Position numbers and translations under genes: made by a program. Positions 15,047 through 34,937 of a DNA stretch of 64,000 bases are shown piece after piece. How positions within the stretch are numbered: the stretch's first letter is position 1; every line of letters starts with the position of its first letter. The DNA lies in NCBI GenBank assembly GCA_029552745.1, contig JAKPDK010000182.1, positions 1 to 64,000 on the forward strand, given 5' to 3'. This stretch comes from Candidatus Hydrogenedentota bacterium. Lineage in GTDB: Bacteria; Hydrogenedentota; Hydrogenedentia; Hydrogenedentales; SLHB01. The notes beneath the pieces are model-generated. The model made no database searches and was not told the origin of the DNA. It worked only from the letters and a program-made list of their open reading frames with translations.

Positions 15047-16441
15047 TTACTTCTCGAGACCATATTTCTGCAAACGGTACCGGAAGGAACGCGGAGACAG
15101 CCGAAGTAGTTCTGCCGCTCTTTTCTGGGAGAAGCGGGTGCGCTCCAGCGCCTGTTTGATTAGGCGCGTTTCTAATTCAGCCACGTACGCCTCGAGATCG
15201 AGACCCTCCTCGGGCAATTCTTTCAACACGTCATCCGGCGCGGCAACGTGGTGTTGGATGTGTTTGGGGAGATCCATCAGTTCGATTTGCTGGCCCGAAC
15301 ATAGGGCTACGGCACGTTCAATAACGTTTTCCAGTTCGCGCACGTTCCCAGGCCAGGTGAATGACCGCAGGGCCTGTTCCGCTTCTGGAGAAACTTGAAG
15401 AGGCGGCCGGTTCATTTTCGCGGCATGCTGAATGATGAAATGGCGCACGAGTAACGGAATATCTTCGGCACGTTCGCGCAACGGTGGGACGACGATGGGA
15501 ATGACATTCAGTCGGTAATAAAGGTCTTCGCGAAACGTATTATTGCGCACCATTTCTTCCAAATTGCGGTTGGTGGCGGAGATGATCCGCACGTTCACCG
15601 GAATGGGCGCTGTGCCGCCGACAGGCAAGACCAGCCCATTGTCGAGCACCCGCAGGAGTTTTACTTGTAAGTTCAGCGGCATTTCACCGATTTCGTCCAG
15701 AAAAAGGGTACCGCCGTTGGCAACCACAAACAGTCCATCTTTGTCTTCTACGGCGCCGGTAAAAGCCCCCTTTTTGTAGCCGAATAATTCGCTTTCTAGC
15801 AGATTTTCGGGAAATGCCCCGCAATTGACCGCCACAAACGGTTTTTCCGCGCGGTCGCTTAGTCCGTGAATGGCGCGGGCTACGAGTTCTTTTCCAGTAC
15901 CGCTTTCACCATGAATAGCGACGGTGCTGGGGACGGTGGCGACACGCCGTATCATGTCACGGACTTCTTCCATCGCGCGGCTTTTTCCAATCAAGTTGTC
16001 GAGTTTTCCGCGCAGGGCTTGATCTTTTCGTAGGGCGATGTTTTCGCGGATGAGATTACGTTTTTCGATAGCTCGGCCTACTACCAAACGCATTTCTTCA
16101 TTCTTGAACGGTTTGAGGATGTAATCCGCAGCGCCTTGTTTCATGGCTTCGATGGCAGTTTCCACGGAACCATATGCCGTGATCATGATGGTAGGCACAG
16201 CGGGTTCGTTTTCATGTATCCAACGGAGAAGATGCATGCCGGCATCTCGTTGAGCGCCGAATCGCAGATCGGTGATTACACAGTCAAAATGGCTGCCTTG
16301 TAACAGCTCCTTTGCAGCATGAATGTCAGCGGCGGTGAGAACTTCATACCCTTCGTTGCCGAGCACGATCTCCAGCAATTCCCGCATTCCCGCTTCATCG
16401 TCCGCGACAAGCACTCGGGGACGCGGCTGATGGTTGGTCAT
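15047..16441 (-). CDS. pilR: Sigma-54-dependent response regulator, PilR/NtrC family
   Basis: The 464-residue regulator has three domains in order. A receiver domain carries the phospho-acceptor Asp58 in 'CVITDLRF'. An AAA+ sigma-54 activation domain has Walker A 'GESGTGKELVARAIH' and 'GAFTGA', which contacts sigma-54. A Fis-type HTH sits at the C-terminus ('FSQKRAAELLRLSPRSFRYR'). It starts six bases after the histidine kinase stop, so the two are a cognate pair. The genes upstream are pilT and pilB, which supports the PilS/PilR assignment (control of type IV pilin transcription); the exact target promoters are not visible. Confidence 0.85.
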   Translation of the reverse strand: MTNHQPRPRVLVADDEAGMRELLEIVLGNEGYEVLTAADIHAAKELLQGSHFDCVITDLRFGAQRDAGMHLLRWIHENEPAVPTIMITAYGSVETAIEAMKQGAADYILKPFKNEEMRLVVGRAIEKRNLIRENIALRKDQALRGKLDNLIGKSRAMEEVRDMIRRVATVPSTVAIHGESGTGKELVARAIHGLSDRAEKPFVAVNCGAFPENLLESELFGYKKGAFTGAVEDKDGLFVVANGGTLFLDEIGEMPLNLQVKLLRVLDNGLVLPVGGTAPIPVNVRIISATNRNLEEMVRNNTFREDLYYRLNVIPIVVPPLRERAEDIPLLVRHFIIQHAAKMNRPPLQVSPEAEQALRSFTWPGNVRELENVIERAVALCSGQQIELMDLPKHIQHHVAAPDDVLKELPEEGLDLEAYVAELETRLIKQALERTRFSQKRAAELLRLSPRSFRYRLQKYGLEK

Positions 16442-16447
16442 AAGGCA

Positions 16448-18043
16448 TTACTCCTCTGAGCGCACGGCAGGGAGGCGAACCGTGAATGACGCGCCGCCGG
16501 TTGGTCGTGATGCCACATAGATAGCACCGTCGTGTGCCGTGACGATTCTCATGCAAACGGCGAGTCCCATTCCCACTCCCGACTGCTTTGTTGTGTAAAA
16601 AGGCTCAAAGATTCGGGTTATTTGGTCGGGCGGTATTCCGGGCCCCTCATCATCAAACCGTATGGAAACAGACACGGGGTCGCGCACGATAGCCACGGTA
16701 AGCCGTCCTCCCTGTTCCATCGCTTCTATGGCGTTCTTGCCAATATTATAGAAAACTTGTTTCAATTGCGATCGATCTCCTGACACGGCGCAACCGTGAG
16801 GACATGGCAGCATGGTTATTTCGATGTTTGGGTGGCTATGGCATTCACGGCTCAGGAGTTCACAGACTTCCCGCACGACTTCGCAGACCGGAAACGGCGT
16901 GCGCTCCACGTGTGGTTCGCGGGCAAAATCCAAAAACTGGCTGATGATGTGATTTAGATGATCGGATTCCCGCACGGCGATCTCGATAAGACGGCGTTGT
17001 TGTTCAGGGGAAACCGAAGAAGAACGTATTTCTTCCATGGCGCCTCGTATGGCGGCGATGGGATTGCGGATTTCGTGCGCCAGTCCAGCTGCGAGTTCGC
17101 CGACAGCAGCGAGCCGATCGTGGCGTTGAAGTTCTTCGCGCATTTGGGTCAGTTCCGTCAAATCAGAGAAGGATACAATGAGGCCGGTTAGATTACCTCG
17201 TCTGCCGAAAAGGCAGCTGGTACTTAACCCTAGGGTCTTCGTTTTGTTCTCACCGATTCGGGCGGCAAACTCATAACGGGTGAAATCACGCCGCGTGCGC
17301 AACGCGGTGATGACGGGACATTCGTCGCCGTTCACTTTTTGTATGATGTTCTCGACAGGCTGGCCGACGGCCGCGCCTTCGGGTATTTCCAAGATCCGCG
17401 CGGCGGCTTTGTTTTGTACCAGAATGCATCCTTCGGGATCGACGATAATGAAGCCGTTGTTCATGTTATCCAGGATTTCGTGTTGGAACTCCTGCAAACG
17501 GTTCAGCCGCATGTTCCAATAGCCACTGATAGTCGTGGTGAGGTAGTAGGCAAGGGTTTGTACGAGCAAGGCATATCCGGCGTTCAGGGGAAATCCGCGA
17601 TTCGCTTCGATGACAAACTCTATACCCATGAAAAGGGTGGCTAGGGTGGCGAAGACGAATCCCTGTGCAATACCCAGTAACAAACCTGCTTCCAGGATGA
17701 CAACGACAAAGAGGAAGGTGAAAAGACTGTCTGCGCCGCCGGTGGAGTTGACAGTTGCGGCAACTATCCCAAAGTCGATGAGCATTTGTCCCCAGGTGAG
17801 AAGCGGCGATACGGGAGACTCCCGGCGCAGAAGGAAAAGATACAGAACGCAGCTGAAAATCCCGAAGAAGTAGAATGCGGTCAAAAACGGGATGAGGAGT
17901 GGGTCTACCCCTTTCGGCAGGACGTTCACGCCCACAGCAATGACTACGAGTACGACGATGCGGATGGCACCGACGTACCAGAGCCAAGCGGTGGATCGCT
18001 CGGCGGAGAAACGTGACCTTTCTTTTTGATGGAGTATGTTCAC
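16448..18043 (-). CDS. pilS: Membrane sensor histidine kinase, PilS-like
   Basis: The 531-residue kinase has six hydrophobic segments between residues 20 and 175, a PAS domain at about 185-300 ('MNNGFIIVDPEGCIL'), and a HisKA dimerisation helix with phospho-accepting His323 in 'GLAHEIRNPIAAIRGAM'. A HATPase domain follows, with N-box 'FYNIGKNAIEAM', 'FDDEGPGIPP' and 'TTKQSGVGMGLAV'. The topology of a six-helix membrane sensor followed by PAS, plus the location between pilT and a PilR-like regulator, supports PilS. Its start overlaps the pilT stop by four bases (ATGA), indicating translational coupling. Confidence 0.85.
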   Translation of the reverse strand: MNILHQKERSRFSAERSTAWLWYVGAIRIVVLVVIAVGVNVLPKGVDPLLIPFLTAFYFFGIFSCVLYLFLLRRESPVSPLLTWGQMLIDFGIVAATVNSTGGADSLFTFLFVVVILEAGLLLGIAQGFVFATLATLFMGIEFVIEANRGFPLNAGYALLVQTLAYYLTTTISGYWNMRLNRLQEFQHEILDNMNNGFIIVDPEGCILVQNKAAARILEIPEGAAVGQPVENIIQKVNGDECPVITALRTRRDFTRYEFAARIGENKTKTLGLSTSCLFGRRGNLTGLIVSFSDLTELTQMREELQRHDRLAAVGELAAGLAHEIRNPIAAIRGAMEEIRSSSVSPEQQRRLIEIAVRESDHLNHIISQFLDFAREPHVERTPFPVCEVVREVCELLSRECHSHPNIEITMLPCPHGCAVSGDRSQLKQVFYNIGKNAIEAMEQGGRLTVAIVRDPVSVSIRFDDEGPGIPPDQITRIFEPFYTTKQSGVGMGLAVCMRIVTAHDGAIYVASRPTGGASFTVRLPAVRSEE

Positions 18044-19107
18044 TCCCCGCGTTCCAACATGCGCTGGAGGTCTTCAGGGTCGTGCGTACTCTTGAAAGCC
18101 GTATCCAGCGTGATGAGATTACGTCGCACTAACCGATACAACGACTTGTTCATGGTCATCATATCTTCGCCGCCGATCTGGATGAGCGTGGGGATTTGGT
18201 GGAGATTGTCTTCGCGAATATTGGAGCGAATAGCGGCGTTGGGCACCATAACCTCAAGCGCGGGCACCCGTCCCCGTCCATCGGCACGAGGCAGCAGCTG
18301 TTGCACGACTACTCCTTCCAGTACCAAGGAGAGCTGGGTACGTACTTGAGCTTGCTGGTTTGCGGGAAATACGTCCACGATACGGTTGATGGTTTGCGTG
18401 GCGTCGTTGGTGTGAAGCGTAGCGAATACAAGGTGTCCGGTTTCAGCGGCGGTGAGAGCGGTTGCGATGGTTTCATAGTCACGCATTTCGCCGATGAGAA
18501 TGACGTCGGGGTCTTGCCGTAGCACATGACGCAGCGCGGCGGCAAAGGATTTTGTGTCAGAATTCACTTCACGTTGATTAATCAAGGATTTTTTGTGGGA
18601 ATGAAGATATTCAATCGGGTCTTCGACGGTGATGATATGTACACTTCGCTCGCGGTTGATCTTGTCAATAATGGCAGCGAGTGTTGTAGATTTGCCACTA
18701 CCGGTCGGGCCGCATACGAGGACAAGCCCGATGGGACGGTAGGCGAAGTCCGCGACCACCCGCGGCAAGCCAAGTTCTTGGAACGAACGAATTTCAAACG
18801 GGATAGCTCGAAAAGCCGCTGCAACTGAGCCCCGGTCTCTGTATACGTTCAGACGGAACCGACTGAGTCCCGCGATACCAAAAGACATATCGCACTCTTT
18901 TTCGGTTTCAAAGGTGGCGATCTGTTCTTCTTTCATTACACTGTAGACAAGGTCCTGTGTTTGGTCCGGGGTCAAACGGTCATAGCCAGGTAAAGGTTCC
19001 AGGGTTCCGTGTATACGCACCATGGGAGGTACGCCCACCGAGATATGCAGATCGCTGGCGCCCAGCTCGATCATTCTTGAGAGCATTTCTTTGATGTTCA
19101 GTTCCAT
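18040..19107 (-). CDS. pilT: Type IV pilus retraction ATPase PilT
   Basis: The 355-residue secretion-superfamily ATPase powers pilus depolymerisation. It has the N-terminal PilT signature 'SDLHISVGVPPMVRIHG', Walker A 'GPTGSGKSTTLAAIID', Asp box 'VEDPIEYLH', Walker B-type 'DVILIGEMRDYETI' and His box 'TGHLVFATLHTND'. AIRAEL-type C-terminal features are replaced by 'NAAIRSNIRE'. The chosen ATG at 19107 has GGGAGG about 5 bases upstream; the frame could extend to 19158. It lies 89 bases after pilB and overlaps pilS. A second PilT homologue is at 41115-42203. Confidence 0.9.
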   Translation of the reverse strand: MELNIKEMLSRMIELGASDLHISVGVPPMVRIHGTLEPLPGYDRLTPDQTQDLVYSVMKEEQIATFETEKECDMSFGIAGLSRFRLNVYRDRGSVAAAFRAIPFEIRSFQELGLPRVVADFAYRPIGLVLVCGPTGSGKSTTLAAIIDKINRERSVHIITVEDPIEYLHSHKKSLINQREVNSDTKSFAAALRHVLRQDPDVILIGEMRDYETIATALTAAETGHLVFATLHTNDATQTINRIVDVFPANQQAQVRTQLSLVLEGVVVQQLLPRADGRGRVPALEVMVPNAAIRSNIREDNLHQIPTLIQIGGEDMMTMNKSLYRLVRRNLITLDTAFKSTHDPEDLQRMLERGE

Positions 19108-19195
19108 ACTCCCTCCCTTGTCCGTTTGGTGTGTTTCGTCATTCTCTTGATTTGTCACGGTCTTGGAGCGGTTTGCAACTTTCGTACTGTTTTGG

Positions 19196-20941
19196 TCAAT
19201 CCGCCGGGGAAATACGCAGTACTTCTTCGATGGTAGTGAGTCCTGCCGCCGCTTTCGCCAGAGCGTTTTGACGCAAGGTTGCCATGCCGCATTTCATCGC
19301 GACGCGTTTGATCTCTGCTGCGGGCGCCCGTCTCATCACCAGGTCCTGGAGTTCAGGATAGTTGGGCATTGCCTCAATTACCGCCAGACGGCCTTTATAG
19401 CCGGTGTTGTTGCAGCGTTGGCACCCTCTACCACGGGCAAACTGCGGCGGGGGAGCGCCTTCGGGTTGGCGGAACTGAATCCGGTCGAGTACTTCCTGCG
19501 GCACGCGTACTGGCTGTTTGCACTCGGGGCAGATGCGACGAGCCAAACGCTGAGCCGCAGCCAGTGCCACGGACGACTGTACCAGGAAAGGTTCCAAGCC
19601 CATATCGATGAGCCGCGTGAAGACACTGGCGGCATCATTCGTATGTAAGGTACTCAATACCAGGTGTCCGGTCAAGGCAGCTTTCACAGCGATATCTGCG
19701 GTTTCTTCGTCGCGGATTTCGCCGACCATGATGACGTCAGGGTCTTGGCGCAAGATACTGCGGAGGCCTGCAGCAAAAGTCAATCCTACTTCTGGATTGA
19801 CTTGCACTTGATTGACTCCGAACAGTTCGTATTCGACGGGGTCTTCGACGGTAATGATGTTGCGATGGATTTCGTTCAATTTATGTAATGCGCTGTACAG
19901 GGTGGTGGTTTTTCCGCTGCCAGTAGGTCCCGTCAACAGGATCATCCCAAAGGGCAGTTTCAAGGCATCTTTGAAGGCAGCCATGGGCTGCGGTTCGAAA
20001 CCCAAGGCATCGAGATCCAAGGTCAGGGCGCTTTTATCCAAAATACGCATCACAATCTTTTCACCGTAATAGCACGGCAGAAATGAGATACGGAAGTCGA
20101 TGTCGTGTCCACGGCAGCGCACGCGGAAGCGGCCGTCTTGAGGGACACGCCGCTCGGAAATATCCAGATTACTCATGATTTTCAATCGGCAGGTGACCGC
20201 TTGTTGGTCTTTTTTGGCGATAGGGCGGAGCTCTTCCAAGGCGCCGTCCACCCGGTATCGTACGCGGATATGTTTTTCGAACGGTTCGATGTGGATATCG
20301 CTTGCCCCCATGTCTATGGCGCGCAACAAGATACGGTTCACCAGTTGGATGATGGGGGCTTCGGCAGCGCCGGCAACGGCACCGGTGATCTCTTCTTCAA
20401 GGTCCTGTTTTTCTTCGACCGTTTCTACTGACTCCGCGTCCAGCGGTTTTTCGTCTTCCTCGGGTATTTCGGGTCGGTAGCAACGCTCGATGGCTTCTTT
20501 CAGTTCAGAGGCGAAAGCCACCACGGGTTTAATCTCGTAATTGGTTAAGCCTTTCAGTAGACGGAGGTCATCAAAGGCGCGCAAGTTTTGGGGGTCTGCC
20601 ATGGCAAGCGTCAGAACGCCGCTTGATACACCATTATTGGTTACAGACTGAACGGATACTGGGAGCATTTGATGCTGGCGCGCAAGATTTTCGGGCACCA
20701 TCTGCAGCACTTCTTTTGTGATGTGGCATCGGCTGACGCGAATGTGCGGAATATCGAGTTGCTCCACGAAAGTCAGCACGAGTTTTTCCTCGTCGATGTA
20801 GTTTTTCTCCAACAGCACATTTACCAGGCTTTGTCGCGTGGCACGCTGGATAGCAAGGCACTCGGTCAGCTGTTCTTGCGTTATGAGCCCTTGTTCGAGC
20901 AAAACCTCACCGAGACTCCGTCGGGATGTCTTAATCGGCAT
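19196..20941 (-). CDS. pilB: Type IV pilus assembly ATPase PilB
   Basis: The 581-residue extension ATPase begins with a MshEN/GspE-N domain (about residues 6-140; 'SLGEVLLEQGLITQEQL' and a second, less perfect repeat). The ATPase core follows with 'GASDIHIEPFEKHIRVRYR', Walker A 'GPTGSGKTTTLYSALH', 'VEDPVEYELFGVNQVQVN', Walker B region 'DVIMVGEIRDEETA' and 'TGHLVLSTLHTND'. The zinc-binding loop has CPEC and CQRC. Start choice is uncertain: AAAGGA lies 9 bases before 20941, while the frame also opens at 20959/20965. MshEN domains bind cyclic-di-GMP in characterised relatives. Gene order pilB-pilT-pilS-pilR suggests one operon. Confidence 0.9.
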   Translation of the reverse strand: MPIKTSRRSLGEVLLEQGLITQEQLTECLAIQRATRQSLVNVLLEKNYIDEEKLVLTFVEQLDIPHIRVSRCHITKEVLQMVPENLARQHQMLPVSVQSVTNNGVSSGVLTLAMADPQNLRAFDDLRLLKGLTNYEIKPVVAFASELKEAIERCYRPEIPEEDEKPLDAESVETVEEKQDLEEEITGAVAGAAEAPIIQLVNRILLRAIDMGASDIHIEPFEKHIRVRYRVDGALEELRPIAKKDQQAVTCRLKIMSNLDISERRVPQDGRFRVRCRGHDIDFRISFLPCYYGEKIVMRILDKSALTLDLDALGFEPQPMAAFKDALKLPFGMILLTGPTGSGKTTTLYSALHKLNEIHRNIITVEDPVEYELFGVNQVQVNPEVGLTFAAGLRSILRQDPDVIMVGEIRDEETADIAVKAALTGHLVLSTLHTNDAASVFTRLIDMGLEPFLVQSSVALAAAQRLARRICPECKQPVRVPQEVLDRIQFRQPEGAPPPQFARGRGCQRCNNTGYKGRLAVIEAMPNYPELQDLVMRRAPAAEIKRVAMKCGMATLRQNALAKAAAGLTTIEEVLRISPAD

Positions 20942-21048
20942 CGACCCAGTTCCTTTCATTGTCACCGTCCCCTGTTATGTCCCCACGGTTTTGTGCGTCC
21001 AGTTTATCCTTAACGAGTTTCGTTTTCTAACTGAAAAACTGTCCTTAT

Positions 21049-21120: not shown

Positions 21121-23286
21121 TCAGTCCTCTATCCCGAGATGCGCCAGAATCTCCGTTACGAGTTCTGCGGTGACTTCCTGTCCGACGAGTTCGGCAAAAG
21201 CGATAACCTTTCGGAGGGAACCAGTCATTTTGCGCACGTCGGAAGTGACACGAGTAGCAATGAGGGTAAGAATCTCATCGTTGATGGTTATATCGGCTTC
21301 TTTGGCATAGTGTCGTAGTATTTTGAGTCGGGTGTCCCAATCTGGGGGATGCAGACAGGCGACGATGCCGCTGGCAAAACGGGAAACCAGACGTTTTTCG
21401 AGTTGGCCGAGTCGGTCCGGGGGATTGTCAGCAGCGATGATAATTTGTCGGTTTTCTTGGTAAAGCGCGTTGAAGATGTGGAAGAACTCTTCTTGAGCTT
21501 CAATTCTTCCGCCTAGAAACTGAATATCATCGAGGATCAACACGTCCCAGCGACAATACGCTTCGCGGAATGGTTCGAGGGCGTGTTCCTCAAGTGCAGT
21601 CATCAGTTTTCGTGCGAAACGGCTCGCCGAAACGTACCCGACGTTTTTGGAATCATCGGCTTCTACGATGGCGTTGCCGATGGCGTTGACCAAATGGGTC
21701 TTTCCGAGCCCCACCTCGCCGTACAGAAAAAACGGGTTGTATTTTTCGCCGGGATGCTCGGCAACAGCGCGCGCAAGTTGAACAGTGAACACGTTTGGTT
21801 TCGCCACGAAAAAGGATTCGAAGGTATACCCGGGTAGGGGTAATTCGGAATCCAGGGCGGCTTGGATGCGTTCATCAAGACGCAGTTTTAATCCAGGTCC
21901 CTCGATGGCTTCCAAGGCATCGCTTTCTGCCTTTCCGAGTAGAGCGGCGGCTTGTTTTGCTTTTTTGGGAGATGTCAGCCTTGTCCGCTGAAGTCCGCGT
22001 TTCACGTTTTCGGTCACGGCGGCGGTTTCGGCTTGGTCTGCAGCGCGTTTGGCTTCTTGTTCAGCCCGCGCTGCGGCTTCCTGGGCTTGGCGGGCAATGG
22101 CAAGAATCTGGGTTGTTTGGTCTTTTTGTGCCGCTAAGACGGCTTCGACGGCGGCTTGAGCGGCTTGAGCGGCTTGGGTTGCTGCTTGCGTCAATTCCGC
22201 AAGGCGACGGTTTTCCTCTTCGGGAATGTCGGGTTTGGTTGTCACGGAGACAGGTGTTGCAGCCTGTTGCGCGCGGAGGATTTGTGCCGCTTCCGAAATG
22301 GCTTCGCGCACGGCGTCGTGGACGCTCGCGCGCATGATTGCCGCCAACTCCTCTACCGAAGGACCCGGCTCACGGGGTTCGGGAACGGGTGCCAGGGGCA
22401 CAGAGGAAAGCACAGTTTGAAGGGTTTGCTGGATCGTTTCCTGGGTAGCTTCACGGATGGTGCGGGCGAAGTCTTCGGGGGAAAAGGGGGAGCGCTCTTC
22501 GGGGCGAGACGTGAGTTGGTCGCTGATCGCCTCTTTTACGTGGTCTTTTACGGCTTTTCCTACCTCCTGAGAGACAGTCTCCGCCGTGGCAATTCTAGGT
22601 TCGCCTTGCTCCGTTGGTGCAATAGGCTCTTCAATAGGTTCCACCGGGGTGGGCGGTGATTCCGAAGATGCCGCCGCGGGTTTTGGAGCCGTGCTAAATC
22701 CCAGGCTCGACATCGATACTTCGTCTTGAGAGACCTCTTGACGTTTGAACAGTTTCTGTGTGACTTGGTAAAAGTGCTGCCATTCGCAAAGGATGGGCTT
22801 GACCTTATAGTCGGGACAAGCATTTCGGACCTGATTGATAGCGTCGATGTCCAGCGGGTCGACCATAGCCACGGTGAGGATTCGTCCCAGTCGGTCGATG
22901 GGCAGCACGCCATATTTTAGGCATACATCTTCGGGAATGCTGGACAAAATCTCCGGCGCGATCTGATAGTCGAGCAAGTTAATATGTGGGATGCGGCACT
23001 GGCGCACCAAAAACGACATCAAGGTTTCTTGAGTGATAAATCCGAGCTCGACTAGCGCTTGCCCCAAAAATCCGCCATGCTCTTTTTGTCGGGCTAAGCC
23101 ACGTTGGACTTGTTCTTGGGTCAACATGCCAGCGTGAACCAACAGTTCGCCGAGACGTAACCGTGCTGCAAGCGCAGCGGGATTTTGTGCGGGCTGGTCT
23201 GTTGGGACTTTCGGCGAGGAAACGGACTCGTTCGGGACAGATTCGCCGGCTTGAGGTCCCTCTTCTTTGGCTCTTCTAAATAACAT
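21121..23286 (-). CDS. MshEN (c-di-GMP-binding-type) domain fused to DnaA AAA+ ATPase domain
   Basis: The 721-residue protein has an unusual layout. Residues about 42-180 are a MshEN/PilB-N domain with two tandem motifs ('RLGELLVHAGMLTQEQV' and 'FLGQALVELGFITQETL', each ending in a conserved Gln). Residues about 180-360 are Pro/Glu-rich and likely disordered. About 360-480 is an Ala/Gln/Glu-rich coiled coil. Residues 482-721 are a DnaA domain III ATPase: 'LPGYTFESFFVAKPN', Walker A 'GEVGLGKTH' (523-531), Walker B 'DVLILDDIQFLGG' (Asp586/587), putative Arg finger in 'RLVSRF', and sensor II region 'SDVRKMTGSLRKV'. It stops there, so the DnaA domain IV helix-turn-helix that binds DnaA boxes is absent. 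It lies just upstream of pilB, whose N-terminal domain is of the same type. Function unknown. Confidence 0.88.
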   Translation of the reverse strand: MLFRRAKEEGPQAGESVPNESVSSPKVPTDQPAQNPAALAARLRLGELLVHAGMLTQEQVQRGLARQKEHGGFLGQALVELGFITQETLMSFLVRQCRIPHINLLDYQIAPEILSSIPEDVCLKYGVLPIDRLGRILTVAMVDPLDIDAINQVRNACPDYKVKPILCEWQHFYQVTQKLFKRQEVSQDEVSMSSLGFSTAPKPAAASSESPPTPVEPIEEPIAPTEQGEPRIATAETVSQEVGKAVKDHVKEAISDQLTSRPEERSPFSPEDFARTIREATQETIQQTLQTVLSSVPLAPVPEPREPGPSVEELAAIMRASVHDAVREAISEAAQILRAQQAATPVSVTTKPDIPEEENRRLAELTQAATQAAQAAQAAVEAVLAAQKDQTTQILAIARQAQEAAARAEQEAKRAADQAETAAVTENVKRGLQRTRLTSPKKAKQAAALLGKAESDALEAIEGPGLKLRLDERIQAALDSELPLPGYTFESFFVAKPNVFTVQLARAVAEHPGEKYNPFFLYGEVGLGKTHLVNAIGNAIVEADDSKNVGYVSASRFARKLMTALEEHALEPFREAYCRWDVLILDDIQFLGGRIEAQEEFFHIFNALYQENRQIIIAADNPPDRLGQLEKRLVSRFASGIVACLHPPDWDTRLKILRHYAKEADITINDEILTLIATRVTSDVRKMTGSLRKVIAFAELVGQEVTAELVTEILAHLGIED

Positions 23287-23378: not shown

Positions 23379-23407
23379 ATTGTAACACCCGCCGAACAAG
23401 CCGTCAA
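23379..23407 (-). promoter_or_regulatory. Sigma-70-type promoter for the MshEN-DnaA gene
   Basis: On the minus strand TTGACG and TACAAT are separated by exactly 17 bases, about 90 bases upstream of the start codon at 23286. This is a strong match to the consensus. Confidence 0.7.
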
Positions 23408-23701: not shown

Positions 23702-24085
23702 ATGAGAGACACAATTTGGACACGCGTGATAGCTTGTGTTTTGATGGCTGCCCTTATTTTGCCGGTGGCAGCTATCGCTCAAGAACGACTAACCTATGAC
23801 CCGGAGGACGAAATCCCCGCGGCGACGGGCGTAGAACGCGCGTTGACGAAGTTGGGACGTGGTCTTTCCAACGTAATGTTTGGTTGGGCGGAGATTCCGG
23901 TGACGTTTGACAAGAAGCTAAAACAGGGCAAACCATTGGGCTACTTGTTGGGTGTAGTGCCGGTTTTGGGAACTGCCCGTGCGGTAATGCGCACGACCAC
24001 AGGTGTGTTCGAAGCGGTGACGTTTCCTTTCTCGGATCGGGACGTAAATTACGAGCCCATTCTTGAACCCGAATTCTTGTTCTGA
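23702..24085 (+). CDS. Exosortase system-associated protein, TIGR04073-type
   Basis: The 127-residue exported protein has a signal peptide at residues 1-26 (hydrophobic core 'VIACVLMAALILPVAAIA'). The mature part has 'KLGRGLSNVMFGWAEIP', 'GKPLGYLLGVVPVLGTARAV' and 'GVFEAVTFPF'. These match the TIGR04073 family, which is found in bacteria with PEP-CTERM/exosortase systems and has no assigned biochemical role. It has a GGAGG ribosome site and its own promoter. It is followed 6 bases later by the 87-residue gene. No exosortase is encoded in this window. Confidence 0.82.
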   Translation: MRDTIWTRVIACVLMAALILPVAAIAQERLTYDPEDEIPAATGVERALTKLGRGLSNVMFGWAEIPVTFDKKLKQGKPLGYLLGVVPVLGTARAVMRTTTGVFEAVTFPFSDRDVNYEPILEPEFLF

Positions 24086-25280: not shown

Positions 25281-26354
25281 ATGCAGCTAACCCGATTAAT
25301 ATGTTCTGGTTTTCGGTGTTTAAAAGATTTGAGTTTTCAGCCGGGTCCGGGGTTGAACCTAATCGTTGGGGCAAACGCCCAAGGTAAGACATCACTTCTG
25401 GAATCGCTGCTGTATGTGGCTACCGCCCGAAGTCATCGCACGACCCAGGATGTTGAACTTGTGCAATACGGCGGGCAAGGGTTTCGGATTGCGGCATGGG
25501 TAGAACGTAGGACGCGGCCTGTGGTGATTGAAGCGGCATATTACAATGGCGCAAAACGATTTCGGGTCAATGGTATTCCTCAGTCGCGGGTGAGCGACAT
25601 TTTGGGGAAAATCAATGTCGTGTCGTTTTTTGCGGAAGATGTCGCTTTGGTGCGAGGTGCGGCATCACAACGGCGCCGTTTGTTGGATATCGAATTGTCA
25701 AAAGTGTATCCCCAATACCTGCGATCGTTGCAACAGTATCGACAGGTGTTACGTCAACGTAACGAGGTACTCCGTAAAAAACCGATGAAACCGGAGGAGC
25801 TTATAACGTGGGACGTGCAGCTAGTCGCCTATGCGCAAGTGCTCATGGAACATAGGGCGTCGTTTGTTCGCCGGTTGACGGATACCGCCGAGGCTTATTA
25901 TGCGCGCATCGCGGGCGAAGGGGAGTCGCTCACCCTTGCTTACCGTCCTGATATCCGTTCTGATATGAACTTTGGTGAAGTGATCGCTCTGGCTCGGGAG
26001 ACGGACCAGAAACAGGGCATGACAACACGGGGACCGCATCGAGACGATGTGGACATCTTAATAAATGCCAAGCCGGCGCGGCAGTTTGCTTCGCAAGGGC
26101 AGCAACGGAGCGCGGCACTGGCGATCAAACTGGCCACGGCGGACTGGGTGCAGGAGGCAACGGAAGAAGACCCGATCCTTGCGCTGGACGACGTCTTTTC
26201 GGAACTTGACCCCGACCGCGCGTCGAGGTTGCTGGAGACGTTATCCCCGCACCGACAGTCCTTGATTACTTCTACAGACGGATTGGTGGACAGACTTCCC
26301 GCGGAGAACCGGAAAATGTTCTGGATGGAAGGGGGCCGACTTGAAGAAAAATAA
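25281..26354 (+). CDS. recF: DNA replication and repair protein RecF
   Basis: RecF is an SMC-like ATPase that helps load RecA at gaps in DNA. The 357-residue protein has Walker A 'GANAQGKTSLLES' (residues about 30-42), an ABC-type signature region 'FASQGQQRSAALAIKLA', and Walker B 'ILALDDVFSELD'. Length and motifs match RecF. It is followed by the DUF721 gene, which overlaps it by 14 bases, then gyrB and gyrA. This is the standard order of the replication-initiation neighbourhood, but without dnaA and dnaN immediately upstream. Confidence 0.93.
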   Translation: MQLTRLICSGFRCLKDLSFQPGPGLNLIVGANAQGKTSLLESLLYVATARSHRTTQDVELVQYGGQGFRIAAWVERRTRPVVIEAAYYNGAKRFRVNGIPQSRVSDILGKINVVSFFAEDVALVRGAASQRRRLLDIELSKVYPQYLRSLQQYRQVLRQRNEVLRKKPMKPEELITWDVQLVAYAQVLMEHRASFVRRLTDTAEAYYARIAGEGESLTLAYRPDIRSDMNFGEVIALARETDQKQGMTTRGPHRDDVDILINAKPARQFASQGQQRSAALAIKLATADWVQEATEEDPILALDDVFSELDPDRASRLLETLSPHRQSLITSTDGLVDRLPAENRKMFWMEGGRLEEK

Positions 26355-26673
26355 ACCACAATCTGTCCAGGAAATTCTCTCCGAGCTAAAGAAAAAGTCT
26401 GAGATAGGACTGCAGCTGGAGTATGCGCAGATTTGGGAAGAGTGGGAGTCCCTTGTGGGCGTACATCTCGCGCGTCATAGCCACCCGATGACCGTGAAAG
26501 AGGGAGTGCTCTATGTTCATGCGGAAAGTTCTCCTTGGATGCACAAACTGGCTTATGAGAAGTGGAATATCCTTAAGCGTATCAATAAGTTAGCGAATAA
26601 AGAGTTGGTGTCGGACTTGTATATTCAATTGGAGCCGGATTCTGACCCGACGACTCCACAATATGGTGCGTAA
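26341..26673 (+). CDS. DUF721 / DciA-like protein
   Basis: The 110-residue protein belongs to the DUF721 family. Some members (DciA) assist loading of the replicative helicase DnaB in bacteria that lack DnaC/DnaI-type loaders. The core 'IWEEWESLVGVHLARHSHP' then 'KEGVLYVHAESSPWMHKLAYEKWNIL' in pattern is characteristic. The start codon appears to be TTG at 26341, overlapping recF by 14 bases, which suggests translational coupling; no ATG lies nearby. The gene lies in the conventional recF-DUF721-gyrB context. Confidence 0.85.
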   Translation: MKKNKPQSVQEILSELKKKSEIGLQLEYAQIWEEWESLVGVHLARHSHPMTVKEGVLYVHAESSPWMHKLAYEKWNILKRINKLANKELVSDLYIQLEPDSDPTTPQYGA

Positions 26674-26711
26674 ATGCCCCAGACAAAACTCTAAATATTG
26701 GGTTTTGCTCC

Positions 26712-26740
26712 TTGTTTTGAACTCGCCAATTTGATATACT
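26712..26740 (+). promoter_or_regulatory. Candidate promoter for gyrB
   Basis: TTGTTT and TATACT are separated by 17 bases, 40 bases upstream of the gyrB ATG. The -10 element is good and the -35 element is moderate. It would allow gyrB to be transcribed separately from recF. Confidence 0.5.
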
Positions 26741-26751
26741 ATCCTTAATAA

Positions 26752-29208
<2,457 letters not shown>

Positions 29209-29268
29209 TCCCAATTGGAACATGACAAGCTTGCATTGAGTATTCGACCCGTTGGAGCCCACTAACCC

Positions 29269-31797
29269 ATGGATGCACAAAAAGAACATATTGTTCCTGT
29301 AGCCATCGAGCAGGAGCTCAAGACGTCGTTTCTTGATTATTCGATGAGCGTGATCGTCAGCCGCGCATTGCCCGATGTGCGTGATGGCTTGAAACCGGTA
29401 CAGCGGCGCATTCTCTACACGATGCACGAATTGGGGCTCGTGCACAATAAAGGGTTTCGGAAGTCCGCGGCGGTCGTGGGCGATACGATGGGGAAATATC
29501 ATCCTCATGGGGACCAAGCCATCTATGACACGTTGGTGCGCATGGCGCAAGACTGGAGTTTTCGCTATCCGCTAATTGATGGTCAAGGGAACTTTGGTTC
29601 CGTCGACGGCGACAGCCCTGCGGCGATGCGGTATACGGAAGTGCGCATGGCGCCGATTACGGCGGAAATGCTTGCCGATATCGAAAAGCAGACCGTCGAT
29701 ATGCAGGACAACTACGACGGTCGTTTGCAGGAGCCAAAGGTGTTGCCGGCGGCGGTGCCGAACTTGCTCGTGAATGGCTCTCAAGGCATCGCAGTCGGCA
29801 TGGCGACCAGCTGCCCACCTCATAATTTGAATGAAGTATGCGACGCGATTGTGCACCTGATAGACAATCCGGATGCAGAGACTCGCGACTTGATGCGGTT
29901 CATTAAGGGACCGGATTTTCCCACGGGTGCCATTATTTACGGTACGGAGGGTCTTGCAGAGGCATATGCCACGGGTCGGGGCAAGGTGCAAGTACGGGCG
30001 CGTGCAATCACGGAATTCGACAAAGCTAGCGGCAAGGATCGCATTGTTATTACGGAAATCCCCTATCAGGTGAACAAATCGCGGTTGATCGAGAGCATCG
30101 CGGAACTCGTCAAAAACAAGGAAGTGGAAGGCATTACCGATCTCCGCGATGAATCTGATCGCGAAGGTATGCGTATAGTCATCGAGATACGCAAAGGGGA
30201 TGAACCCCAGGTGATTCTCAATCAATTGTACGCGCGAACCCAGCTTCAGGATACGTTCAGTATCCTGATGTTGGCGCTGGTCAACAACGTGCCGCGGGTG
30301 TTGTCACTGGTGGAGATGATTCGGTATTTCATCGAACACCGAATCGAGATCGTGCGGCGTCGTACGGAATATGACCTGCGCCAAGCCGAAGAACGATCCC
30401 ATATCGTTGAAGGGTTGCTACGCGCCATTGATCACATTGACGAAATTATCGCGATCATTCGGGCGTCAGCGGATGTCGACGTTGCCCGCGAGAATTTGAA
30501 AAATCGTTTTGGGTTTAGTGATGCCCAAGCCAATGCGATTCTTGCGATGCGGTTGCGGCGGTTGACGGGCCTGGAACGGGAGGAGCTGGAAAAAGAGTAC
30601 CAGGATTTGCTGAAGCAAATTGAACGCTTCAAGATGATCCTTTCGAGTCGTCGTACGATTCTTGCCGAAGTTCGCCGCGAAATTCTTGAGATAAAACAAA
30701 AATACGGTGATGACCGACGGACAGAGATTCTGGGGGAAGCGGGCGAGTTCCGTATTGAAGATTTTGTTGCTGACGAGGAAATGGTGGTGACGGTTTCGAA
30801 CGCCGGGTATATCAAACGGGTGCCCGTGAGTTCGTATCGTAAACAGCGACGCGGCGGACGGGGTGTCACGGGAGCGGATACAAAAGAAGAAGACTTCATT
30901 CGTGATTTGTTTGTGGCTTCGGCGCATCAGTTTCTCCTATTTTTCACCAACAAAGGTCAGGTGTACTGGCGGAAGGTGCACGAACTTCCGAAAGGGACGC
31001 GTACGGCGCGCGGACGGGCCATAGTGAACGTGCTGGACCTTAGCGGCGACGAACGTGTCACGGCATGTCTGCCTGTTCGAGATCTCAACGAGGAAGGCAA
31101 GTTTGTGTTCATGGTGACACGCAAAGGGATCGTGAAGAAGACGGAGCTCACAGCGTTCAGCAATCCGCGGTCGAAGGGTATCCGTGCGATCGATCTCGAA
31201 AAAGATGACGAACTGGTTGATATTCAAATCACGTCCGGTCGAGATAACATTCTCCTTGCTACGCGGCGCGGTATGGCGATTCGTTTTCCGGAAACCGATG
31301 TTCGACCCATGGGGCGGTCTGCCCAGGGCGTTATCGGAATTCGACTCGAGAAAGATGATTATGTCATAGGGACCTCGATTGCGCACGACGATATGACCGT
31401 GCTCAGTGTTACGGAAAATGGTTTTGGTAAACGCACGCGTGCGGAGGAGTACCGCGTGCAGCATCGTGGCGGGCACGGCATCATCAATATCAAGACGACG
31501 GACCGCAACGGCAATGTTGTGGGCATGCTCACGGTGGACGACGACGATGAAATCGTAGTGGTGAGCACGGACGGCGTCGTGATCCGCTTGGCGGTGCGCG
31601 ATATACGCACTATCGGCCGTAATACCCAAGGCGTGAAAATAATGGTACCTAATCCAGGAGCTAAGGTGAGCGCGGTGGCGCGGGCTGTCGGTGAGCGCAA
31701 GGAGGACAAGACCACGGGGGCGATGTCCGACAATGATTCCTCAACTGAAAGCGACGACGAACCCATCTCTGACGATAGCAGCGACCCGGATGCATAA
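29269..31797 (+). CDS. gyrA: DNA gyrase subunit A
   Basis: GyrA is the DNA-breakage subunit. The 842-residue protein has the catalytic Tyr122 in '[13 protein letters not shown]', the six-bladed C-terminal DNA-wrapping domain, and the gyrase-specific GyrA box in '[11 protein letters not shown]', which distinguishes it from ParC. In the quinolone-resistance region the sequence is '[17 protein letters not shown]', so residue 83 (same numbering as in E. coli) is Gln instead of the usual Ser/Thr/Ala, while Asp87 is conserved. The C-terminus is a Ser/Asp-rich acidic tail. It is co-directional with gyrB. Confidence 0.96.
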
Positions 31798-31946: not shown

Positions 31947-31983
31947 TCGGAGGGAAGTACGACTGGTTGCGAGGGTGCCGCGT

Positions 31984-33552
31984 ATGAAGACACGTCTCCT
32001 GGGCTTGCTGTACGTTGGGGCGATTTTGCTGTGTGTTTGTCTGTCGGCTTCCAGTGCGGGGGATTTCCGCTGGGTGGAAGTGGATGTCTCGTTGCGGCCG
32101 GACTATAAGGCGACGGTGACGTACAGCGTATGCTTGTGTTCTCTCGGAAACTTGCATGGTTTTTATTTTGAAGGTGTAGAAGAAGAACCAATTTTCGATA
32201 CTTCCTCCGCGGTTGCATGGTACAACAACAATCGTTCCAGCGTGCCGTTAGAGATCAAGCGCGTTGACTCGAAGACGTGGGACATTGTGTTGGCGGGAGG
32301 ACGGGCAATCGATTCGGGGGATGTGATTTACAAGTTTACGTATGCCGCGGACTTGGGCGCGTCGGGACATTTGGGGGTGACTCAATCTGAATTTGGTCCG
32401 CTGGTGTATTTTGACTGGGCGCCGGTTCAGTGGGACTCGCCTTTGGAACATTATACAGTGCGCGTCTATTACCCCATCGAATGCCAAGCGGGGGAAATGA
32501 CTATTGCAGACATGGATGCTTTTGGGTTTCGTACCGAACGTTTCATGAACGATCAGTGCCTGATTTCGTATTACGGCCAGGAACAGAACGGGAAGAACTG
32601 GCTTGCGGTGCGTTTGCATCGGGACACCGTTCCGCAAAGGTATCATTTCCGTATACAACAATACATCGACGCGAAATACTTTCAGCCGAGAGAAGTCTCA
32701 CGGGGGATCGGTGGGGCATTATCGCAGATGACTTCGACTCGTTTGTCTTACGTTCCCATTCTTCTCTTTGGGTTTATCGTTATTTTCTTACTCTTTTTCA
32801 TTGTCTTGACGAAACACCGGTCTTTGATCAAGGCGCGAGACGGGCTGGATGAGATTCAGTGGGCTCGGAATGACTGGATCCCGCCGCGCATTGAGGTTTC
32901 GTCTTTTCGTAAAGAAGGCAAAATTGCTGAGTTGGACATTTATGAGGCATGTATTCTTTGTGAGGTTCCTTTTGGGGACGTCTTGAGTGCGATTGTGACA
33001 AGGCTGGAGTCTCTCGGCGCGATTGAAGTAGTTTCTAAGAACCCGTTTCGTTCTCGCGCCTTGCAAGCACATCCGAACTTGCCGAACGAGTATGAGCAAG
33101 CGTTTTTTCAATTTGTCGAGGGAGACGGGGAATTAAGCGAATCGGAAATGGCGGAGATTTTTCGCACCCTCTGTGATAATTTGCAGCGGAAGGCATGGGA
33201 CAGCGACCTGGACGCCACCCGGGCGCATTATCAGGAAATGGTGGATCAGTTGTTTTCGCCAACGCTGGAGCAGCAGGAGGAGGTTGGCGAGCGGCGGGTG
33301 GAACCTGTGGTCGTTTTGGGACACAGTTGGCACCGTTACCCCTATTATTATCGCACTTCTTTCAGCAGTGATTTACATCGGATGACGTACTCCAGTTTCT
33401 TACAATCCAACTATTGTTTCCAGGGGTGTTTCACGCATTCTGCGTGTCACGATGCATGTCATTCTGCGTGTCATTCGGCTTGTCACAGCGCGTGTCATTC
33501 GGCTTGTCACTCTGCCTGTCACAGTGCCTGTGTCAGCGGGGGTTCCCATTGA
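31984..33552 (+). CDS. DUF2207-like membrane protein with C-terminal (Cys-His-Ser-Ala)n tail; candidate radical SAM substrate
   Basis: The 522-residue protein has a signal peptide (1-24), an extracytoplasmic beta-rich DUF2207-like domain (about 28-245), one membrane helix (about 255-277) and a cytoplasmic part (278-522). The cytoplasmic part ends in a Cys-rich tail: Cys478, Cys482, then Cys488, 492, 496, 500, 504, 508, 512 and 516 at exact four-residue spacing, as eight tetrads His-Ser/Asp-Ala-Cys, closing with VSGGSH. The His, Ser and Ala codons vary between repeats, so the pattern is kept at protein level. The predicted topology puts the tail in the cytoplasm, where the radical SAM/SPASM enzyme encoded 8 bases downstream could reach it. 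The ATG at 31984 is preferred over GTG at 31975. The DUF2207 assignment is by pattern. A metal-binding tail is the main alternative. Confidence 0.87.
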   Translation: MKTRLLGLLYVGAILLCVCLSASSAGDFRWVEVDVSLRPDYKATVTYSVCLCSLGNLHGFYFEGVEEEPIFDTSSAVAWYNNNRSSVPLEIKRVDSKTWDIVLAGGRAIDSGDVIYKFTYAADLGASGHLGVTQSEFGPLVYFDWAPVQWDSPLEHYTVRVYYPIECQAGEMTIADMDAFGFRTERFMNDQCLISYYGQEQNGKNWLAVRLHRDTVPQRYHFRIQQYIDAKYFQPREVSRGIGGALSQMTSTRLSYVPILLFGFIVIFLLFFIVLTKHRSLIKARDGLDEIQWARNDWIPPRIEVSSFRKEGKIAELDIYEACILCEVPFGDVLSAIVTRLESLGAIEVVSKNPFRSRALQAHPNLPNEYEQAFFQFVEGDGELSESEMAEIFRTLCDNLQRKAWDSDLDATRAHYQEMVDQLFSPTLEQQEEVGERRVEPVVVLGHSWHRYPYYYRTSFSSDLHRMTYSSFLQSNYCFQGCFTHSACHDACHSACHSACHSACHSACHSACHSACVSGGSH

Positions 33553-33560
33553 GGCGTGGT

Positions 33561-34937
33561 ATGAAATCGGGCAAGAACGGAGAATTGCCTTTGAAACGAG
33601 ATGAGCGCTATCCGCTTGAATGGATAGATGATTATGTCAAGTCAATTCGGCCGTTTGTCCATGTTCGGCGGCGGGATAACTTATTGATCAAGATACCCAA
33701 CGAGGCGTTCAAATTAAACGAAAGCGGTGTGCAGATTTTGTTGCGGCTTTTTTCAGGCGAACCGATCATGACCTTGTGGCGTTCCTTCGGGGGTGATGAG
33801 GTTGTTCAGCGGGATCTGTATCACTTCTTTATTGCCTTGAAACAGGCGCTTCAGGGATGTCTTAACGAACAGGCACCACCGCAGGGGGCCGTGATACAGC
33901 CATTTACGCTGGGGTTCAGTGCACTCCCCATTCTAAGTGAAGTCGCGCTTACGTACCGGTGCAACTTGCGGTGCCGTTTTTGCTACGCCGGGTGTGGGAA
34001 AGGCAGCGCGAGTGCTTTGCCGGAGATGAGTACCGATGAGGTGAAACGGGTGTTACGTTGTATTCGCGAGGACGCCGATGTGCCGAGCGTTAGTTTCACG
34101 GGCGGTGAGCCGACGCTTCGTGACGATCTCGAGCATCTTGTTACGTTTGCGCGGCGCGAGTTACAGATGCATGTGAATCTGATCACGAATGGGACGCGGA
34201 TTGACGCCCAGCGGGCAGTGGCGCTTGCGGAAGCGGGATTGAACAGTGCGCAAGTGAGTCTTGAAGCCCCGTGCGAGGAAGTGCATGACCGTTTGACGGG
34301 TGTGCCCGGTTCGTTTCTACGAGCGCTGGAATGTATCCGCTGTTTGCAGGAGGTTGGTATTCGGGTTCATACCAATACGACGCTCACCCGAGCCAACCTG
34401 GAGCATGCCTCGGCAATGCCAGCGTTTGTCCATTCCCTGGGCTTATCGCGGTTTTCGATGAATTTGATGATTCCTGCGGGTGTGGATAGACAGGACATTG
34501 CGCTTTTAAGTTTGCGGTACAGGGAGATCGGGGAACACGTGCTACGTATCAAAAAGGCGGCAGAACAGGAGCGCGTGGAGTTCATGTGGTACTCGCCGAC
34601 GCCGGTCTGCCTATTTAATCCGGTGGCGTACCGATTGGGTAATAAAGGCTGTGCTGCGTGTGACGGCTTGTTGTCGGTTTCGCCAACGGGGGGTGTATTG
34701 CCCTGTTCCAGCTGGCACGAACCCGTGGGCAATCTATTGGAAGAACCGTTTGAGGAGGTATGGCAGTCTGCGCGGGCTTGCATGATCCGTTCCAAAAGGG
34801 AGGCGCCGCGGGTTTGTCGTACGTGTGATGATTTTGCGGTATGTCAGGGTGCGTGTCCTTTGTATTGGCACGAGTTTGGTTGTGAGGAATTGGTAGGGCT
34901 GCAGGAGGGGCTTTGTCATGCTGTTGCCGGCACCTGA
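33561..34937 (+). CDS. Radical SAM/SPASM enzyme with N-terminal PqqD-like recognition region
   Basis: The 458-residue enzyme has three parts. Residues about 35-100 ('LLIKIPNEAFKLNESGVQIL') resemble PqqD, the RiPP recognition element. The radical SAM core has CNLRCRFC (Cys134, 138, 141) and 'SFTGGEPTL'. The SPASM-type C-terminus has Cys364, 367, 382, 419, 422, 428, 432 and probably 441 or 452 as auxiliary-cluster ligands. SPASM enzymes with a fused recognition domain typically modify ribosomal peptides, often making thioether or carbon-carbon cross-links. The ATG at 33561 has GAGG six bases upstream and lies 8 bases after the stop of the Cys-tail gene; an upstream extension to 33414 is only a shadow of that repeat. 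It overlaps the next gene by 20 bases. Confidence 0.92.
   Translation: MKSGKNGELPLKRDERYPLEWIDDYVKSIRPFVHVRRRDNLLIKIPNEAFKLNESGVQILLRLFSGEPIMTLWRSFGGDEVVQRDLYHFFIALKQALQGCLNEQAPPQGAVIQPFTLGFSALPILSEVALTYRCNLRCRFCYAGCGKGSASALPEMSTDEVKRVLRCIREDADVPSVSFTGGEPTLRDDLEHLVTFARRELQMHVNLITNGTRIDAQRAVALAEAGLNSAQVSLEAPCEEVHDRLTGVPGSFLRALECIRCLQEVGIRVHTNTTLTRANLEHASAMPAFVHSLGLSRFSMNLMIPAGVDRQDIALLSLRYREIGEHVLRIKKAAEQERVEFMWYSPTPVCLFNPVAYRLGNKGCAACDGLLSVSPTGGVLPCSSWHEPVGNLLEEPFEEVWQSARACMIRSKREAPRVCRTCDDFAVCQGACPLYWHEFGCEELVGLQEGLCHAVAGT

Follow-up and report, generated by a model that had tools for sequence, protein, structure and literature searches.

The window analysed here, a 64,000-nucleotide stretch of a Hydrogenedentota genome, carries on its minus strand (21121..23286) a single uninterrupted open frame of 721 amino acids, in which an N-terminal MshEN domain (residues 44-183) is joined by a helical linker (residues 235-435) to a complete DnaA domain III (residues 471-721), an arrangement conserved in the phylum. 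A sequence-only reading of this DNA had placed the gene at the correct coordinates; the strand, which it left unstated, is minus. A candidate sigma-70-like promoter (TTGACG-17-TACAAT; 23379..23407, minus strand), recognized by pattern only, reads into the fusion gene; it matches 10 of the 12 consensus positions and has TG ahead of its second hexamer, in a scan that gave 6 sites where 1.4 were expected. A gene for a TIGR04073 exosortase-associated protein (23702-24085, plus strand) runs divergently from the fusion gene. The next gene downstream is pilB, encoding the type IV pilus extension ATPase (19196..20965, minus strand; T2SSE, 462.9 bits; TIGR02538, 656.8 bits against a cut-off of 675.65), and it is followed on the same strand by genes for a pilT-type retraction ATPase (18040..19158; T2SSE; same order in relatives), a PilS-like sensor kinase (16448..18043; HisKA, HATPase_c, PAS and a weak 6TM_PilS match) and a PilR-like sigma-54 response regulator (15047..16441; Response_reg, Sigma54_activat and HTH_8), giving the order fusion, pilB, pilT, pilS, pilR. 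Homologues of PilM are also encoded in this genome. Elsewhere in the window, a 525-aa protein (31975-33552, plus strand) with no Pfam or NCBIfam match and a repeated His-Cys tail (CHSACHSACHSAC...) adjoins a radical SAM/SPASM protein (33561-34937, plus strand); the two look like a peptide-modification pair.

The N-terminal part of the fusion protein is classed by sequence as an MshEN domain, for which binding of c-di-GMP is predicted. The NCBIfam model c-di-GMP_motif (NF053729; 60.8 bits, cut-off 38) spans residues 44-96 (22999..23157, minus strand), and Pfam MshEN (PF05157; 65.7 bits, cut-off 23.1) matches residues 98-183 within the C-terminal part of the domain (residues 97-183; 22738..22998, minus strand), where the pLDDT of the AlphaFold model is mostly >90. 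Motif I reads RLGELLVHAGMLTQEQVQRGLARQ and retains the R, L, G, G and Q of the RLG...Q pattern; column counts across the fusion family (R in 22, G in 25 and Q in 21 of 27 proteins) keep it near the published MshEN consensus (PMC5013675). Motif II reads FLGQALVELGFITQETLMSFLVRQ and begins with F, not R: the position of the guanine-stacking R38 is occupied by Phe in 24 and Tyr in 3 of the 27 fusions, with G40 and Q61 each kept in 23/27. The pair of MshEN motifs claimed by the sequence-only reading is covered by NF053729, and the second of them lacks its first Arg. The same reading had proposed an ATPase controlled by a second messenger; this is plausible but, with a key guanine-contacting residue replaced in all members, unproven. 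An aromatic residue at the start of motif II might itself stack on guanine, and on the sequence as it stands we consider it rather probable that the fusion binds c-di-GMP.

The PilB proteins of the phylum depart further at motif II, with S, N, T or G at the R38 position and P, A, Q or V at the G40 position in 43/43 sequences; they nonetheless pass the NF053729 cut-off with 41-53 bits. In the GSPII-A domain of Thermus PilF, Ser and Ala at these two positions contribute to the loss of c-di-GMP binding, and a Thermus construct with Ser at the R38 position loses binding altogether (PMC12002112). By this comparison, the phylum's PilB is probably a poor binder of c-di-GMP and the fusion an uncertain one. 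With motif II of PilB degenerate, as in PilF GSPII-A, it could be the fusion that senses c-di-GMP for the motor. Eleven GGDEF matches above cut-off were found in the window genome. Other MshEN proteins of the phylum, fused to GGDEF, cNMP-binding or HDOD domains, differ from the fusion in having another output domain and in not being located at the pilB position; those of the GGDEF and cNMP types have MshEN domains whose aligned part is ~34-50% identical to that of the fusion, and they carry the same Phe in motif II. The proteins that combine MshEN with a cNMP-binding domain (~440-475 aa, in several genomes: L083 2111-3454, minus strand; L084 2700-4076, plus; L085 2059-3375, minus; L086 2685-4052, plus; L089 2245-3669, minus) possibly integrate c-di-GMP and cAMP; MshEN-PAS-GGDEF proteins adjoin NtrC-type regulators (L081 1821-3728, minus strand; L082 1732-3438, plus); and the window genome has three MshEN-HDOD proteins, recognized by Pfam (L102) or by blastp (L103 and L106).

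The linker is predicted by AlphaFold to form three short helices (residues 235-259, 270-295 and 311-343; 22258..22584, minus strand) and an 80-residue helix (residues 356-435; 21982..22221, minus strand), with moderate pLDDT (~55-80). Only in the last of these does a 3.5-residue periodicity exceed that of shuffled sequences (p ~0.01), so that the long coiled coil described earlier is retained as a possible coiled coil in helix 356-435 and is not extended to the other three, which are short and show no such periodicity. The linkers of relatives carry a repeated unit with the consensus DPEELAEAIRESVAGAMQEALATLMVQLR. With matches counted above 4 bits, an HMM of this repeat has 0-6 matches per protein in relatives and top scores of 40-50 bits in several, scores in the seed proteins being inflated by the drawing of seeds from the same linkers; the window protein has one match (~residues 311-331, 17.3 bits), and 135 shuffled linkers gave 3 matches with a maximum of 8.6 bits. 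Open-frame length ranges from 601 to 1204 aa among the fusions, and this variation lies almost wholly in the linker.

The C-terminal domain (residues 471-721; 21124..21876, minus strand) is a DnaA domain III by its Pfam match (Bac_DnaA, PF00308; residues 487-642, 186 bits, cut-off 23), by its AlphaFold model (pLDDT 90.7) and by its best PDB matches, which are DnaA domain III structures (Z 29.6-30.6; Hda ~20, DnaC 19); PDB-sequence scores are 266 bits for DnaA versus 59 bits for Hda. It scores 297.5 bits with the DnaA equivalog model TIGR00362, below the cut-off of 343.9. Residues of 26 fusions were compared with those of 38 DnaA sequences in E. coli numbering, the key residues of the E. coli DnaA sequence used landing at their published positions. 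All four regions named in the sequence-only reading are present: Walker A (GEVGLGKTHL, residues 523-532; 21691..21720), whose K529 corresponds to K178 and is Lys in 26/26 fusions and 38/38 DnaA; Walker B (LILDD, residues 583-587; 21526..21540), whose D586 and D587 are common to DnaA; the Arg finger R636 (R285; 21379..21381), Arg in 26/26; and the sensor II residue R685 (R334; 21232..21234), likewise Arg in 26/26, all on the minus strand. Thus K178, D235, R285 and R334 are retained in every fusion, as is D236, and R281 of box VII in 25/26. E. coli DnaA binds single-stranded DNA through V211 and R245 and makes DnaA-DnaA contacts through R227, K243 and L290 (PMC5742627). In the fusions, V211 of the H motif becomes mostly A, S, G or K; the basic-motif position R245, which aligns with E596 of the window protein (21499..21501, minus strand), is Glu in 25 and Asp in 1, versus Ala, Arg, Ser or Lys in most DnaA; R227, K243 and L290 become C, R and I; and NVRELEGAL of DnaA reads DVRKMTGSL. 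Because the catalytic and Arg-finger residues are kept and those for single-stranded DNA are changed, the fusion is expected to have kept ATP hydrolysis and Arg-finger pairing but not DNA binding. ATP-dependent self-assembly of the fusion is likely.

The observation that the protein ends where domain IV would start was confirmed: Bac_DnaA_C is absent from the fusion and present in the DnaA of the same genome, and all 27 aligned homologues stop at the same point, after the lid. Phylogenetic analysis groups the fusions in a single clade (support 100), which has a stem length of 1.0 substitutions per site and falls outside the DnaA clade of the phylum, with deeper placement lacking clear support; this separate clade on a long stem rules out a recent copy of the genome's own DnaA.

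The distribution of the fusion was surveyed in 68 genomes of the phylum, all belonging to one order (searches by class and by phylum give the same set). The DnaA-like domain is present in one copy each in 54/68; with a profile of the fusion AAA+ domain (A1), 52 genomes have matches at E <= 1e-85 and two (G002 and G023) at ~1e-80, and ordinary DnaA, detected in nearly all fusion genomes, scores lower (~1e-69 to 1e-80). As the sequence-only reading had suggested, the same domain pair was sought in other genomes and was found throughout the phylum and across many of its families, with a single frame in the ~36 genomes inspected; a full DnaA is also encoded in nearly all of the genomes with a fusion. 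A frame error joining two genes is refuted by the single frame in those ~36 genomes; the two halves are not consistently separate, and a chance origin is rejected because genomes across the phylum share this frame and order of domains. Mean column identity of the AAA+ domain across the phylum is 73%. Three genomes (G001, G015 and G057) are too incomplete for the presence of the fusion to be judged. At the locus upstream of pilB in G035 (L145 4703-6628, minus strand), MshEN and linker are kept and the DnaA-like domain is lost, and one genus (g37: G048 and G054) keeps pilB-pilT-pilS-pilR with no fusion; therefore the fusion is not indispensable.

Only ordinary DnaA was found in ~735 genomes of three other phyla, at thresholds under which not every DnaA registers; the sample comprises 246 Planctomycetota, 297 genomes from a phylum to which a 'Deltaproteobacteria' genome belongs, and 192 from a phylum with small genomes. 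Restriction of the fusion to one phylum is not established thereby. The long frames in G409 and G630 encode ordinary, domain IV-containing DnaA preceded by a 5' extension that is non-coding; a further frame (L075, 660 aa) was read in part. A contig search with P0001, reaching close relatives only, returned nothing but DnaA-like stretches, and no paper on an MshEN-DnaA architecture was found in the literature searched. In the window genome, a normal DnaA (DnaA_N, Bac_DnaA and Bac_DnaA_C) is encoded on another contig (G000:C109), and recF, a DUF721-like gene, gyrB and gyrA are clustered in the window (25281-31797, plus strand) without dnaA or dnaN. Another contig of the same genome, G000:C95, encodes a 362-aa protein (L003 895-1980, minus strand) in which a divergent DnaA-like AAA+ domain (53 bits) is accompanied by a long, charged C-terminal part resembling a coiled coil. 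A second DnaA in G025 (L128 723-2078, plus strand; G025:C732) groups with that of E. coli in the tree; it lies on a 3.1-kb contig and is probably contamination.

The earlier suggestion that the ATPase was recruited to the pilus machine is supported: in 40/40 genomes whose contig extends past the fusion, the gene that follows on the same strand is pilB, which in most cases overlaps the fusion or lies no more than 150 bp away. The adjoining pilB is 47% identical in G025 and is split into two frames in G017. The order fusion-pilB-pilT-pilS-pilR recurs in several families: the first four genes are found in L091, L093-L096, L098-L100, L146-L149, L151 and L153, and a pilR-like gene is next wherever the locus is long enough. 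Fourteen genomes have no strong DnaA-domain match, and pilB was checked in 15 genomes, nearly all of them without a full fusion match. Four (G032, G069, G070 and G072) have no fusion and no such pilB, only paralogues of ~42-44% identity, the fusion thus being missing where such a pilB is missing; in G018, G027, G045 and G019, pilB is at a contig end, where the presence of the fusion is not judgeable. The link of the fusion to the pilus is strong, and adjacency to pilB shows association, not direct contact.

A different reading of the gene is as a replication regulator of the Hda type, whose AAA+ domain would pair with DnaA through the Arg finger and set the level of DnaA-ATP in response to c-di-GMP, so that the cell cycle would be tied to life on surfaces. 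Like Hda, the fusion has domain III without domain IV, and it keeps the Arg finger; moreover, the window genome has three Bac_DnaA matches, the third of which (362 aa) is not Hda-like, and no separate Hda was seen there. However, the fusion is much closer to DnaA than to Hda in both sequence and fold (266 versus 59 bits; Z ~30 versus 20); it scores 97.7 bits with the Hda model TIGR03420, below the cut-off of 194.8; the DnaA interface residues R227, K243 and L290 are changed; and the gene is in the pil cluster wherever this can be checked. Inspection by eye found no QLxL[FP] clamp motif in the fusion. The proposal that pilus signalling is linked to replication is not supported either, since no fusion gene adjoining dnaA was seen, loss of the pil cluster takes the fusion with it and leaves DnaA in place, and the fusion has no domain IV and has the single-stranded-DNA residues of DnaA replaced. 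A replication role of the fusion is unlikely, and regulation in the manner of Hda is improbable. A role in DNA uptake, in which the DnaA-like module would handle single-stranded DNA imported through the pilus, could appeal to the binding of single-stranded DNA by DnaA and to the fact that type IV pili can serve competence, but with domain IV absent, V211 changed to A, S, G or K and an acidic residue at the R245 position in 26/26 fusions, it is very improbable.

As a polar landmark or scaffold, the fusion would form ATP-dependent DnaA-like filaments that mark sites of pilus assembly, with MshEN as a tether, so that PilB is placed, not remodelled. This is in keeping with the head-to-tail oligomers that DnaA domain III forms through its Arg finger (PMC5742627), an Arg that the fusion keeps, and with the long helical spacer of variable length; we regard it as possible and not probable, and on its own it does not account for the retention of all of the ATP-hydrolysis residues. 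That the fusion is a lineage-specific assembly artefact or neutral join with no specific role might be argued from the loss of the AAA+ part in G035 and the genus without the gene, but is contradicted by conservation: the fusion is present in many families, reads as a single frame in the ~36 genomes inspected, averages 73% column identity over the AAA+ domain and retains the catalytic residues. This reading has a negligible chance of being correct.

The best reading of these sequences is that the fusion is an ATP-switching, probably c-di-GMP-sensing accessory factor, not a replication regulator. A role at the pilus is highly likely; that the fusion is a dedicated accessory protein of the extension motor PilB is a reasonably good prospect, and direct action on PilB is favoured by a narrow margin. 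MshEN would sense c-di-GMP and, in the manner of the PilB N-terminal domain, dock at the base of the pilus; the AAA+ module would form ATP-dependent oligomers through the Arg finger; and together they would place, load or gate the PilB hexamer. In a more specific and doubtful version, a DnaA-type AAA+ domain removed from replication would load or remodel a ring-shaped secretion motor under gating by c-di-GMP. Comparable to DnaC-type relatives in their loading of the DnaB ring, it would open the PilB hexamer, place it or seat it at the base of the pilus. Without its DNA-binding parts, an ATPase of the replication type appears to have been put to use again in the control of surface pili. To our knowledge, the characterised ATPases of the DnaA clade (DnaA, Hda, DnaC/DnaI and IstB) all act on nucleic acids or replication machinery. 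If the accessory-factor reading is true, the association of a catalytically intact DnaA domain III with a pilus motor throughout a phylum would be a rare instance of this module at work in another setting and a new mode of PilB control in this lineage, and would suggest that c-di-GMP sensing has moved from PilB, with its degenerate second motif, to a separate ATPase.

Compared with known systems, the fusion shares with DnaA domain III the same AAA+ fold (Z 30.6 and 40% identity to 8btg_C), Walker A and B, R281, R285 and R334, but differs from DnaA in lacking domains I and IV, in the changes at V211, R227, K243, R245 and L290 and in its location in a pil operon. Hda works with DnaA and the clamp, and DnaC acts on the DnaB ring; these proteins and DnaI are, like the fusion, AAA+ modules of the DnaA clade without the DnaA-box-binding domain, but their similarity to the fusion in sequence and fold is far lower than that of DnaA. 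With the MshEN domains of MshE, PilB, PilF and NfrB (T2SSE_N/GSPII), the fusion shares a pair of 24-residue motifs with a 5-residue spacing ahead of MshEN_C; unlike them, it has Phe or Tyr for the first Arg of motif II in all members, and its output is a DnaA-type ATPase in place of a secretion ATPase, no match to the T2SSE catalytic domain (PF00437) being found in the fusion protein. In Pseudomonas and Xanthomonas, FimX has a role similar to the one proposed here. FimX responds to c-di-GMP and, as a partner of PilB, influences the polar placement and the activity of that motor (PMC11656802). The parts are unrelated, as the fusion has no REC, PAS, GGDEF, EAL or PilZ domain, and the likeness to FimX and PilZ proteins is one of analogy, not membership. 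By that analogy FimX is the nearest functional counterpart, and what the fusion brings to the comparison is its genetic linkage to pilB.
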